Shown: piece after piece, positions 17,881 to 36,065 of the stretch | Layout: each line of letters opens with the position of its first letter | Position numbering within the stretch: position 1 is the stretch's first letter | DNA from: Candidatus Omnitrophota bacterium | Lineage (GTDB): Bacteria; Omnitrophota; Gorgyraeia; Gygaellales; Profunditerraquicolaceae | DNA length: 36,183 nucleotides | Direction of reading: 5' to 3' | Assembly: GCA_011620275.1 (NCBI GenBank) | Contig: WOZK01000034.1 | Coordinates: forward strand, 1-36,183 | Notes under the pieces: generated by a model | Seen by the model: only the letters and a program-made list of their open reading frames with translations | What the model was told of the DNA's origin: nothing | The model's database searches: none | Position numbers and translations under genes: made by a program

Positions 17881-18051
17881 GCAGCGTTAGATTCCCTGCC
17901 GTGCTCGTTAGGATGAATGATGTTTGGTGAACCAACACCGAGAACACGGGAGCCTTACTCTTTCGGCGTCTTGGCGCCGGAAGGATCGCTTCCAAACTGG
18001 GAAATGGGTTCAACCCGTCATTTGTCCAACGGCACAGGGCGGGGTTTTTTT
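17881..18051 (+). ncRNA. ssrS: probable 6S RNA (ssrS)
   Basis: The region has the 6S layout. A closing stem joins the two ends (CCCTGCC-GTGC near the 5' end with GCAC-ggGCGGGG at the 3' end), and a run of seven T at 18045-18051 gives termination. In the middle, a long rod ends in a 9-pair hairpin CTTTCGGCG-TCTTGG-CGCCGGAAG. The length is about 171 bases. The region between stem and rod is loosely paired, as expected for the bulge that mimics an open promoter and binds the housekeeping RNA polymerase. A 6S gene next to rarA is an arrangement I recall from other phyla. The rarA frame could extend through it, but the conserved protein begins downstream. Confidence 0.7.
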
Positions 18052-33290: not shown

Positions 33291-33394
33291 TTTCTATATA
33301 AAAGTTTTATAAGTAAGTGTTCCAATTGGTTTATTTATGAGCTTATGCTTCGACAATCTCAGCATTTTTTCTACTAAAAGATTTATATGATTAT

Positions 33395-33466
33395 TGCCCT
33401 GTCGTCTAATCGGTAGGACTTCAGATTCTGGATCTGACTATCATGGTTCGAGTCCATGCGGGGCAG
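33395..33466 (+). tRNA. tRNA-Gln (CTG), CCA not encoded
   Basis: The acceptor begins with T1-A72 as usual for tRNA-Gln (TGCCCTG with CGGGGCA). The anticodon stem TCAGA/TCTGA encloses TTCTGGA, giving CTG, the T-arm CATGG-TTCGAGT-CCATG is perfect, and the discriminator is G73. No CCA is encoded. Its last six bases, GGGCAG, are the start of a 110-bp repeat. Confidence 0.95.
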
Positions 33467-33570
33467 TGATTCGACGCGCCCTCATTTCATTCGGGCTTGC
33501 TCATCATCTGTGGGCGAGTTACTTTGAGATGAGGGCGTTGTTATTTAGGGGTGTGCAGAATCATCCTGAG
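33461..33570 (+). repeat. 110-bp hairpin repeat, copy 1 (overlaps tRNA-Gln 3' end)
   Basis: Repeated at 35956-36065 with two differences. It contains a 12-pair stem (CGCCCTCATTTC with GAGATGAGGGCG, one G-T pair) enclosing a loop of about 37 bases. It starts within the tRNA-Gln acceptor and ends at ATCCTGAG. Confidence 0.93.
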
Positions 33571-33639
33571 CAAGTGGTGGTGCGCAAGAGAGTCCGCAAG
33601 GGCGAACGCGTAGAACCGGAGTGCGTCGAAGGACAAAAA

Positions 33640-33918
33640 ATGTGGTTTGTTTATATGTTATTGTGCAAGGATGAAGCAATTTATACCGGTATCACCGATG
33701 ATATAGATAGACGCGTAAAAGAACATATTCAAGGGAAAGGCGGGCATTTTACGGGGTATAATCGTCCAAAAGAGATCCTATATAAAGAAACATTTAAGAA
33801 TCGCTTTGAAGCGGAACAACGTGAACGACAAATTAAGGGATGGACTCGCGCAAAGAAGAAAGCCTTGATAATGGGGAATAAAAGCGAGCTGATAAGTTTG
33901 AGTAAGTCTCGAGATTAG
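33640..33918 (+). CDS. GIY-YIG endonuclease domain protein (YhbQ/UPF0213 type)
   Basis: From ATG 33640 the protein has 92 residues: WFVYMLLC (the GIY position, here VYM), IYTGITDDIDRRVKEH (the YIG position plus catalytic Arg24/25 and His29), then EAEQRERQIKGW with the metal-binding Glu. This is a single-domain GIY-YIG nuclease of the small YhbQ-like group. The Shine-Dalgarno AAGGA (33629-33633) lies inside the motif GTCGAAGGA. The frame open upstream to 33394 runs through tRNA-Gln and the 110-bp repeat and is not coding. The cellular role of the group is poorly known. Confidence 0.85.
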   Translation: MWFVYMLLCKDEAIYTGITDDIDRRVKEHIQGKGGHFTGYNRPKEILYKETFKNRFEAEQRERQIKGWTRAKKKALIMGNKSELISLSKSRD

Positions 33919-33973
33919 GCGTTCTTCATAGTAAAGCTAATATCGCCCAAGAAATTTGTAAAAAGGGGGCAAA

Positions 33974-34387
33974 ATGTTTGAATGGTTAGAAGTAAATTTT
34001 CAGGGGATAGGTGTTCTTTTTTCTATTGGTGCTATAACATGGGCGGCTGTGCATTATATTAATTTACAGAGCAAGGAAGTAAAACAAAAAAGATTTGAGA
34101 CTTATCATCTTTTAATAAGAAATTTTTTTGAACCCCTCCCTAATCAGGAAAAACCATTGTTAGACAGACAAATTGCAATAGTATTTGAAATGAGAAATTT
34201 CCCTGAATATTATGAAATATCTTTACGCATGTTGGAAGGACTTCTTCCAGAATGGGATAAAAAACAAGAATGGTTAAGATTAGCGGCAGAAACGAAGAGC
34301 ACAATAAAATACATCGAGGACAAACAGAAATTCTTACAGTCTTTTCGGATTTATAGGGGAAATTGGCGATTGAGTAAAATAGACTAA
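33974..34387 (+). CDS. membrane-anchored protein of unknown function
   Basis: A 137-residue protein with AGGGGG eight bases before ATG. One N-terminal helix (IGVLFSIGAITWAAVHYI, about 11-28) is followed by a charged, mostly helical cytoplasmic part (KQKRFETYHLLIRNFFE..). I recognise no family; single-helix proteins of this shape are common in AT-rich accessory regions. Composition is strongly AT-rich (16 G+C in the 60 bases 34141-34200), unlike gltX. No partner is evident. Confidence 0.7.
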   Translation: MFEWLEVNFQGIGVLFSIGAITWAAVHYINLQSKEVKQKRFETYHLLIRNFFEPLPNQEKPLLDRQIAIVFEMRNFPEYYEISLRMLEGLLPEWDKKQEWLRLAAETKSTIKYIEDKQKFLQSFRIYRGNWRLSKID

Positions 34388-34622
34388 ATGAGCGTAAATA
34401 TATTGTGAGGCGCATAAATGATGTCTGTTTTCATAATAAGCCAGTTGCAGATTTCGTCCAATGGGGGCAGTTTTCTTCCGCCAGCGGCGGAAGAAAACGG
34501 AGCAATTGAGCATTCGACATTTGAACAATGGAGGAGAGCGCGCTTGCGATCTAATCTCGATTTTCTACTCGTTAAGACATTTCTCGCGCAAGGATTTTCG
34601 TCTTTTATTTTAGCCAATCTCC
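34388..34622 (+). other. non-coding stretch with a 13-bp perfect inverted repeat
   Basis: GTTTTCTTCCGCC (34470-34482) and GGCGGAAGAAAAC (34486-34498) form a perfect hairpin with a three-base loop AGC and A/T-rich ends, able to terminate in either direction. A 92-codon frame crosses this region but includes the hairpin and the next promoter, so I do not call a gene. Confidence 0.6.
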
Positions 34623-34650
34623 TTGACAATTATATAAAACGTGTTATATT
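34623..34650 (+). promoter_or_regulatory. strong sigma70 promoter of the nucleotidyltransferase-HEPN pair
   Basis: Consensus TTGACA (34623-34628), 16 bases, TATATT (34645-34650). Transcription would start near 34657, inside the palindromic operator that follows. Confidence 0.8.
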
Positions 34651-34653
34651 TAT

Positions 34654-34682
34654 TGTAAGGTTAACCTTACATATGTTAGGTT
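34654..34682. promoter_or_regulatory. palindromic operator with three half-sites
   Basis: TGTAAGGTTAACCTTACA (34654-34671) is an 18-base perfect palindrome. Its right half, together with a third half-site GTTAGGTT, forms a second dyad, AACCTTACATATGTTAGGTT (34663-34682), with one mismatched pair. The half-sites cover the expected transcription start and end 6 bases before the ATG. The winged-helix domain of the first gene product is the likely binder (autorepression). Confidence 0.8.
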
Positions 34683-34688
34683 TATATT

Positions 34689-35318
34689 ATGGTTAAAATA
34701 TTTCAAATTGAAGAAATCGTTGATTCTCTTTCCAAGGTGGCTATCTTGCGGCTTCTTACTGTCCGAAAGAACTTTAAAGCCACAGGCCGCCAGATTGCTA
34801 AGCTGGTAGGTTATTCGGCCCCTTCCACACATGATTCACTAAAGAGCCTGCATGAACGCAACATCTTAAAATTAGATATTATTGGTAAACAGCATATTTA
34901 TACTTTAAATGAAGACGATCGAATTGTTCAAAAAATTATTCGTCCGATGTTTGCCGCAGAAAGTAACATTAAAAATGAAATCCGCGACTTTCTTTTAATA
35001 GAACTCAAACGGACTAAGAGTAAAACAAGAATTGTATCTTTAATCCTTTATGGAAGCGTGCAAACCGAGACAGCTAAAAAGGGAAGCGATATTGATGTTG
35101 CGGTGGTAGTGTCTAGGGCCGCGGATATTCAACCAGTTAAAAATGTTTTCCTTTCCGAAATAGCCTCCAGATTTAAGGCATATTTTGGCGTTCAGATAGA
35201 TCCATATATAAAGTCCGCTGCAGAATTTAAGGAACGGCTTAAAAAGAACCAGCCGCCAGTTTCAACCTTAATGAAATCTTATTCCGTTTTATATGGGAAA
35301 GAACCATTGGAGATTTAA
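34689..35318 (+). CDS. MntA-like minimal nucleotidyltransferase with N-terminal winged helix (antitoxin)
   Basis: The 209-residue protein has two parts. Residues about 8-85 look like a winged helix-turn-helix (FKATGRQIAKLVGYSAPSTHDSLKSL as recognition region, gapped). Residues about 100-205 carry a minimal nucleotidyltransferase fold with the exact GS-x10-DxD motif: Gly122-Ser123 and Asp134/Asp136. MntA-type antitoxins AMPylate their HEPN toxin. Fusion to a DNA-binding domain allows the antitoxin to repress its own operon, and the palindrome just upstream fits this. The HEPN partner follows 2 bases later. Known MntA proteins are often smaller and lack the wHTH. Confidence 0.85.
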   Translation: MVKIFQIEEIVDSLSKVAILRLLTVRKNFKATGRQIAKLVGYSAPSTHDSLKSLHERNILKLDIIGKQHIYTLNEDDRIVQKIIRPMFAAESNIKNEIRDFLLIELKRTKSKTRIVSLILYGSVQTETAKKGSDIDVAVVVSRAADIQPVKNVFLSEIASRFKAYFGVQIDPYIKSAAEFKERLKKNQPPVSTLMKSYSVLYGKEPLEI

Positions 35319-35320
35319 AT

Positions 35321-35731
35321 ATGACTGCTCGCGAGATAAAAATAAGGCAAGAGGGTAGGGCGGCAGCTTCCGAATATTTAAAGAAGGCCACTGATAATTA
35401 TGAGCAGATGTTAGCCGCATTTAATGCTTCAAACTGGAATGCGGCAGCAACCTTGGCTATTCAATGTGCGATTTCATCCGCAGATGCGATTTGCGTCTAT
35501 GGAAAGGGCGTGCGTTCGATTTCGCAAGACCACTTTGATGTTTGCGACCTGGTAGCTGGATTGCCGCTTGACGGCGCCGAGGAGAAATCAAGGCAGTTAC
35601 GCAAAATCATCGCCCGCAAAAATCTCGTCCAATACGAATGCCGTAGTATCAATAAATCAGATGCGGATGAGATGGTCAAAGTTACCACAAGAATTTATCA
35701 ATGGGTAAGGGAGATAATCGGGAAGATTTGA
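35321..35731 (+). CDS. HEPN-domain protein, HepT-like toxin partner
   Basis: The 136-residue all-helical protein (EYLKKATDNYEQMLAAFNASNWNAA.., then AIQCAISSADAICVY) fits the HEPN fold and its pairing with the upstream nucleotidyltransferase, 2 bases away. HepT RNases use an Arg-x4-6-His motif followed by Tyr. Here the matching segment reads RKNLVQYE (Arg99 to Glu106) with Gln104 where His is expected and Tyr105 kept. The catalytic histidine may therefore be missing, or the family may be a non-nuclease variant. The Tyr could still be an AMPylation target. Confidence 0.82.
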   Translation: MTAREIKIRQEGRAAASEYLKKATDNYEQMLAAFNASNWNAAATLAIQCAISSADAICVYGKGVRSISQDHFDVCDLVAGLPLDGAEEKSRQLRKIIARKNLVQYECRSINKSDADEMVKVTTRIYQWVREIIGKI

Positions 35732-35748
35732 AACGAGAGGAAAGAATT

Positions 35749-35926
35749 ATGAAGAATGAGTCCTTAACTGGTTTTGCTGGAAACTTCGTTAGGGGGAATC
35801 GCAAAACGTAAAAAGGAAGACAGCGGAAAAGACAAAGCTGAAAGTTTATTTTTTAGGGATGGATATGATAAGCTTTCAAACATCCCTTCCAAAGCGTATA
35901 ATTTGATAACTAATTGGCAACATTGA
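35749..35926 (+). pseudogene. possible frameshifted small gene or gene remnant
   Basis: ATG 35749, with a good GAGAGGAAAG site, starts a frame that stops after 20 codons. The +1 frame stays open from 35768 to TGA 35926 and reads like protein (LGGIAKRKKEDSGKDKA..SNIPSKAYNLITNWQ). Joining the two by a single indel near 35770-35800 would give a product of about 58 residues. I do not recognise it. It may be a decayed third gene of the toxin-antitoxin operon. Confidence 0.4.
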
Positions 35927-35955
35927 TGTTGTGGAACTCGGCTGGTGTCAACATC

Positions 35956-36065
35956 GGGCAGTGATTCGACGCGCCCTCATTTCATTCGGGCTTGCTCATC
36001 ATCTGTGGGCGAGTTACTTTGAGATGAGGGCGTTGTTATTTAGGGGTGCGCAGAATCATCCCGAG
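35956..36065 (+). repeat. 110-bp hairpin repeat, copy 2
   Basis: Two differences from 33461-33570 in 110 bases. It starts with the same GGGCAG that ends tRNA-Gln. Upstream bases resemble the tRNA T-arm only weakly (14 of 22), and a GATGTTG/CAACATC inverted repeat precedes it. After it, to 36183, I see only AT-rich sequence without a gene. Confidence 0.93.

Follow-up and report, generated by a model that had tools for sequence, protein, structure and literature searches.

We propose that the small nuclease gene behind a tRNA-Gln gene in the genome of a Candidatus Omnitrophota bacterium is part of a free-standing, homing-type GIY-YIG element, one of a widespread set that would target tRNA genes and yet leave the tRNA intact; we consider this reading probable. 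The window, that is, the whole stretch of DNA analyzed here, comprises the 36,183 nucleotides (nt) of contig WOZK01000034.1 (assembly GCA_011620275.1, forward strand), part of a metagenome-assembled draft genome of 1.48 Mb. In this genome and its relatives, we observed the anatomy of such elements, their association with tRNA genes, the duplications that accompany them, filled and empty versions of their sites, and the inheritance of the type of tRNA that they target.

In the window, the element starts at the 3' end of an intact tRNA-Gln(CTG) gene (positions 33394 to 33467; called by ARAGORN, 57 bits with the Rfam tRNA model), which lies on the plus strand, as do all the features annotated around it. 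A search for repeats, combined with folding, found a direct repeat of 110 nt at 33461 to 33570 (copy 1) and 35956 to 36065 (copy 2), with a start-to-start distance of 2,495 nt and 98% identity (2 differences). Both copies open with GGGCAG, the last paired bases of tRNA-Gln; the coordinates, the two differences, and the GGGCAG start given in the original prediction, which was made from this DNA alone, are thus all confirmed. Copy 1 consists of six tRNA bases, a hairpin module (33467 to 33563) that reads TGATTCGACGCG...GAATCA and has a 6-bp terminal inverted repeat, and 7 bases from the start of the palindrome that follows. Its hairpin has a folding energy of -47.2 kcal/mol (z score of -4.3), and none of 200 shuffled sequences was equally stable. 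The next palindrome is the REP-like sequence TCCTGAGC...GTCGAAGGA (33564 to 33633), located directly upstream of the start codon of a gene for a UPF0213-like GIY-YIG nuclease of 92 amino acids (aa) (33640 to 33918; PF01541, 2.9e-17). This protein keeps the conserved Y-x-Y, Y-T-G, R, and E positions in the alignment and has structural relatives in PDB 1zg2/1ywl, and the family libraries assigned it no specific function.

The same layout of tRNA-Gln followed by a GIY-YIG gene was found in three other genomes (L096 and L139 with anticodon CTG, L137 with TTG), where a TGRTTCGAC... module runs from the tRNA end and is followed by a TCCYGAGC...TCGARGGA palindrome and then by the ATG. Similar palindromes also precede the GIY-YIG open reading frames (ORFs) of L101 and other loci. 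The GIY-YIG protein of the window clusters with the tRNA-Gln elements L137/L139 with 98% support, and the start of the leader is common to them. Given this shared layout and this clade, we identify the 110-bp sequence, on comparative grounds, as a GIY-YIG leader module that extends seven bases into the palindrome behind it. The original prediction had suggested an insertion at the tRNA end, moved perhaps by the GIY-YIG protein, or else a hairpin that is itself the mobile part; the insertion site, the link to the nuclease gene, and the role of the hairpin as the repeated or mobile part are all supported here. It had also held that many unlinked copies of the unit would speak against it. The exact 110-bp unit has 2 copies in the whole draft genome and no match in 195 relatives, except for one weak 34-bp match, and comparison of the leader with plasmids and viral contigs gave no match; a related REP-like motif, CCTGAGC...GTCGAAGG, may be dispersed, with 7 genome copies versus 0 for the reversed control.

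The two repeats could also be read as attL and attR of an integrase-type genomic island (33461 to 36065) at the 3' end of tRNA-Gln, the integrase having been lost or acting in trans. As in known integrase elements at tRNA 3' ends, the insertion point is at the tRNA 3' end, which starts the direct repeats, and these flank accessory genes. However, only 6 to 7 of the 110 bases derive from the tRNA and 104 lie outside it, a related sequence leads GIY-YIG genes elsewhere, and no integrase family was found among the tested proteins of the segment. The proposal that the repeat is an integrase attachment core therefore fails. Unlike in integrase elements, moreover, the enclosed gene pair predates the repeats, as seen in the only relative from the same genus that we found (L004 = G001, genus UBA5776). 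In this sister species, gltX and tRNA-Gln are followed, ∼80 bp on, by a nucleotidyltransferase-HEPN (MNT-HEPN) pair with 88.5% DNA identity to the window (window 34604 to 35734 versus L004 5215 to 6346), and both hairpin copies are absent from both homologous sites. The segment 33461 to 36065 is thus not missing as one unit from an empty site in the sister, so that the bracketed 2.5-kb segment of the original prediction does not hold as one accessory unit. Since the sister holds the pair without either hairpin, the pair is, from this comparison, an older resident that would predate both brackets and not recent cargo. We rejected the integrase island on this sister locus and regard it as very unlikely.

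The sister and three distant relatives further show what the tRNA-Gln site looks like without the element. After tRNA-Gln, L004 continues with CCATTGTTGACAACTATCC..., for which exact or near-exact matches exist in L235, L237, and L005, and all four of these empty relatives read GGGGCAGCCA followed by TTGTTGACAAC or a close variant. Because it is common to distant relatives, this uninterrupted sequence probably represents the ancestral state. Upstream at the sister tRNA-Gln locus, there is a separate, unrelated GIY-YIG insertion (L004:4476-5140), made up of a broken tRNA-Gln 5' part with a palindrome, a GIY-YIG ORF, and a full tRNA-Gln, and containing NN.

At the site of copy 2, homology to the sister (77%) stops at window position 35958: L004 reads CGGGACAGC directly followed by TTTAAACCTCC, while the window reads CGGGCAG, then the hairpin, and then TTTTAAAACTCC. 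The 118 bp left up to the contig end behind copy 2 hold no GIY-YIG gene. The most likely account of copy 2 is that a nonautonomous solo leader landed 2.5 kb downstream, at a sequence that resembles the tRNA end in its GGGCAG. Another explanation is recombination, in which repair of a break at the tRNA end would have copied this end and the leader into the downstream GGGCAG microhomology, with a precedent in phage SegB, which triggers segmental amplification at tRNA genes (PMC13096335). The exact start at the shared GGGCAG, the 98% identity, and the duplicated tRNA 3' ends that flank other GIY-YIG genes are consistent with this, whereas the end of the copied piece, after 7 bases of the second palindrome, looks like a module boundary, and the sister has a simple empty site. 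Given that the copied piece matches the module and that the empty site is simple, we prefer a mobile hairpin and see recombination as a rather unlikely, though sizable, alternative. In another part of this genome (L086:1801-2022), there is a direct repeat of the tRNA-Glu 3' end and ∼40 bp of its flank, with the second copy ∼170 bp downstream; the insert between the copies is rich in hairpins and holds no gene. This is the nearest parallel to the 110-bp repeat of the window.

A strong hairpin between a tRNA and an ORF could also be an ordinary RNA structure duplicated by chance, acting as a tRNA terminator or, like the hairpin of T4 SegB, restraining translation of the nuclease, and free-standing phage GIY-YIG genes are indeed regulated by hairpins (PMC2988022). 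But copy 2 has no GIY-YIG gene behind it, and the module starts at the tRNA end with a sequence common across families, so we give this explanation almost no weight; the hairpin may nevertheless have a regulatory role alongside mobility. An assembly artifact near the contig end of a metagenome-assembled draft would fit the contig ending 118 bp past copy 2 and the NN joins in the sister contig. It is highly improbable, however, in view of the two positions at which the copies differ, their different unique contexts, the sister homology that reaches the start of copy 2, and a general tRNA pattern in about 40 loci, including L210, where it stands in a single contig of 1.55 Mb.

This general pattern emerged from a survey of PF01541 genes in 117 relatives, in which 133 Omnitrophota loci were read. 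Small stand-alone UPF0213-type GIY-YIG proteins occur in nearly every genome searched. Within 200 bp of the 133 genes, there were 49 tRNAs on the same strand and none on the opposite strand, and tRNA density near the genes was 0.93 per kb versus 0.03 to 0.06 further out, i.e., roughly 15 to 30 times higher. When adjacency was defined as a GIY-YIG gene at most 200 bp after or at most 60 bp before an intact tRNA, 40 of the 133 genes qualified, with the tRNA just after the gene in 21 cases and just before it in 19; the window belongs to the latter, tRNA-upstream class. Of the tRNA-downstream loci, at least 17 have, ahead of the ORF, a duplicate of 14 to 50 bp from the 5' part of the same tRNA, which scored above every shuffle. 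These pieces are usually interrupted by a palindrome, e.g., TCCCGC...GCGGGATCCCGC...GCGGGA or CCTGCCTGCCGGCAGGCAGG, and three loci (L131, L183, and L221) have a broken 3' piece as well, after the intact tRNA. The GIY-YIG reading frame stops inside or past the start of the intact tRNA in 16 of the 21 tRNA-downstream loci. Three loci of the tRNA-upstream class repeat the tRNA 3' end after the ORF, so that direct repeats flank the GIY-YIG gene: over 21 bp in L123, over all 42 bp that were tested in L162, and over 13 bp in L203, with 0 of 200 shuffles matching in each case.

Frames that end inside an intact tRNA of the same strand were seen for tRNA-Glu (L086, L130, L131, L183, L221, and L225), tRNA-Arg (L167, L181, and L219), and tRNA-Tyr (L218); their stop codon consists of tRNA bases, and tRNA processing would cut their mRNA. 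We also considered group I introns as the cause of the GIY-YIG insertions and rejected them, given that Rfam calls none at the window or at the scanned tRNA-Glu/Arg elements. Rfam does call group I introns in tRNA-fMet of L210 (2196 to 2405; 80.7 bits) and in tRNA-Asn of L116 (1131 to 1375; 74.9 bits), and in L224 a tRNA-fMet downstream of the GIY-YIG gene appears interrupted by eye; these intron-bearing tRNA genes of L210, L116, and L224 also carry GIY-YIG elements. In addition, tRNA-Arg(UCU) is split in the anticodon region by ∼640 to 680 bp in L204 (1949 to 1988 and 2626 to 2665), L162, and L164, and the insert in L204 holds an ORF of 151 aa without an Rfam intron call.

Filled and empty states of a single site were compared between gyrA and tRNA-Glu in 30 relatives, of which 19 are empty, 5 filled, and 4 decayed, while 2 hold other inserts. 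At empty sites, tRNA-Glu follows 5 to 25 bp past the gyrA stop codon. Filled sites, including that of the present genome (L256/L086), contain an orphan tRNA piece, a palindrome, a GIY-YIG gene, and an intact tRNA-Glu. The decayed ones are three short versions without the nuclease gene, in which gyrA is followed by a palindrome-bearing tRNA 5' piece and then the intact tRNA-Glu (L269, L261, and L280), and the sister species, whose GIY-YIG gene in the same insertion has an internal deletion. As far as sequence can tell, these are the states that a mobile, dispensable element leaves behind.

To relate the nucleases to their targets, we mapped tRNA identity onto a tree of the GIY-YIG domain, which has few columns and many open forks. 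Tree and identity agreed with only 19 changes, compared with 28 or more (mean, 33.5) in 2,000 shuffles, and all ten tRNA-Glu elements, the fMet pair, and the Arg set with one Pro neighbor each formed one group. On this tree, the type of target tRNA goes with the nuclease lineage. Hairpins also precede the genes: windows just upstream of GIY-YIG ORFs had z scores below -4 in 19% of cases versus 0.8% of control windows. Upstream of five GIY-YIG ORFs without a tRNA (L182, L192, L193, L213, and L215), the palindromes are of a different family, GTCATTGCGAG...CGAAGCAATCTC, which suggests a second type of palindrome partner. In a small sample of 30 genomes from other groups, tRNA-linked GIY-YIG genes were found in Margulisbacteria (L299 and L322), Saganbacteria (L306, with the same CCTGCCTGCCGGCAGGCAGG palindrome within a tRNA-Leu piece), and Patescibacteria (L307, inside a tRNA cluster); the remaining loci read in these 30 genomes had no tRNA within 1 kb.

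Under the mechanism that we propose, the nuclease would cut a particular tRNA gene or tRNA-gene end, and repair of the break would copy the element in. The tRNA would survive in one of two ways: either the junction with the element lies at the tRNA 3' end, as in the window, or an intact tRNA copy exists while the target is reduced to halves broken by palindromes, as for tRNA-Glu, Arg, Asn, and fMet. A solo leader would then have landed at the GGGCAG look-alike to give copy 2, with the MNT-HEPN pair already present. Several points weigh against this reading. Most of the surveyed GIY-YIG genes (93 of 133) have no adjoining intact tRNA, and the window itself lacks a clear broken copy of tRNA-Gln, the candidate at 34456 being only suggestive. 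With only two copies of the leader in the genome, the case for its own mobility depends on a single presumed solo insertion. The contig of this metagenome-assembled genome ends shortly after copy 2, and the empty site in the sister was matched over a short stretch only, at the end of a contig that carries NN joins. Finally, cleavage, mobility, and the mode of origin of copy 2 are inferred.

By analogy, the closest working parallels appear to be phage SegB and the target-replacing endonuclease ORFs of mitochondria. SegB of T4/T6 is a free-standing GIY-YIG homing endonuclease located between tRNA genes; it cleaves within tRNA genes, its start codon is preceded by an RNA hairpin, and across phages it shows enrichment near tRNAs (PMC2988022, PMC13096335). 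The elements described here are likewise small free-standing GIY-YIG genes (PF01541) among tRNA genes, outside introns and inteins, and like homing elements they have occupied and empty alleles of one site (gyrA-tRNA-Glu, and tRNA-Gln compared with L004, L235, L237, and L005). Unlike SegB, they reside in bacterial chromosomes, encode mostly UPF0213-like proteins of 80 to 120 aa, have a lineage-bound target type, and show palindrome-broken tRNA halves and ORFs that end inside the tRNA. In fungal mitochondria, endonuclease ORFs, one of them GIY-YIG, replace part of their target gene (Allomyces atp6 and Glomus atp6/atp9/cox2/nad3) (PMC3630166). Insertion into a gene with a duplicate gene part that keeps the gene functional also holds for the tRNA-downstream class, and in the window itself there is a suggestive remnant only; the mitochondrial targets are protein genes, in contrast to the bacterial tRNA genes and the palindromes in the dead copy seen here. 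REP sequences, RAYT transposases, and REPINs (PMC3116915, PMC2817692) resemble our elements in that short palindromes stand beside a nuclease-type gene, and some of the palindromes here may likewise be dispersed without it, but the partner is a GIY-YIG nuclease instead of the RAYT (Y1) tyrosine transposase and the motif is CCTGAGC...GTCGAAGG.

Between the nuclease gene and copy 2, the window encodes a 137-aa ORF with an N-terminal hydrophobic stretch (33974 to 34387), which matched no known family and is not at the sister locus; a relationship to the L004 ORF after HEPN was considered and none was found. A possible duplicated tRNA-Gln 3' end, GTCCAATGGGGGCAG (34456 to 34470), is identical to the tRNA at 12 of 15 positions, equaled in 3 of 1,000 shuffles of the region, and is directly followed by a palindrome (34471 to 34497). 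Given that a broader scan for tRNA-Gln similarity failed to single it out, we do not claim it as a remnant, and a search for a tRNA-Gln remnant ahead of copy 2 gave nothing significant. Family searches assigned the MNT-HEPN pair to a nucleotidyltransferase of the NTP_transf_2 family (34689 to 35318) and a HEPN protein (35321 to 35731); as a candidate type VII toxin-antitoxin system (HepT-MntA), the pair gave 22.7 bits for HEPN (cutoff of 22) and 30 bits with the MntA model, under its cutoff of 60. We considered horizontal transfer of the GIY-YIG gene on its 69% identity to that of L137, from another family, and do not claim it because housekeeping genes show similar or mixed values. Elsewhere, the window encodes a 6S RNA (17890 to 18049; RF00013, 51 bits).

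Taken more broadly, and with our confidence evenly balanced, these elements could represent an unrecognized class of chromosomal selfish elements in Omnitrophota and also in Margulisbacteria, Saganbacteria, and Patescibacteria. In this class, UPF0213-type GIY-YIG lineages would each home to one tRNA type, bring or rebuild a complete tRNA, and leave palindrome-broken target halves, with coding sequences that overlap the tRNA and palindromic leaders mobilized as nonautonomous hairpin elements. Open-licence papers on bacterial GIY-YIG proteins with palindromes and tRNAs, mainly phage, mitochondrial, and genome-editing work, did not describe this pattern. The tight, orientation-fixed, identity-specific link to tRNAs, together with the duplicated halves and empty sites, points to a testable role for UPF0213-type proteins: their genes could be selfish and home to tRNAs, as the bacterial equivalent of phage SegB and of the gene-replacing endonuclease ORFs of mitochondria. 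Such a role predicts directly assayable cut sites and would account for the tRNA fragments, the hairpins within tRNA remnants, and the tRNA-overlapping ORFs in these genomes.

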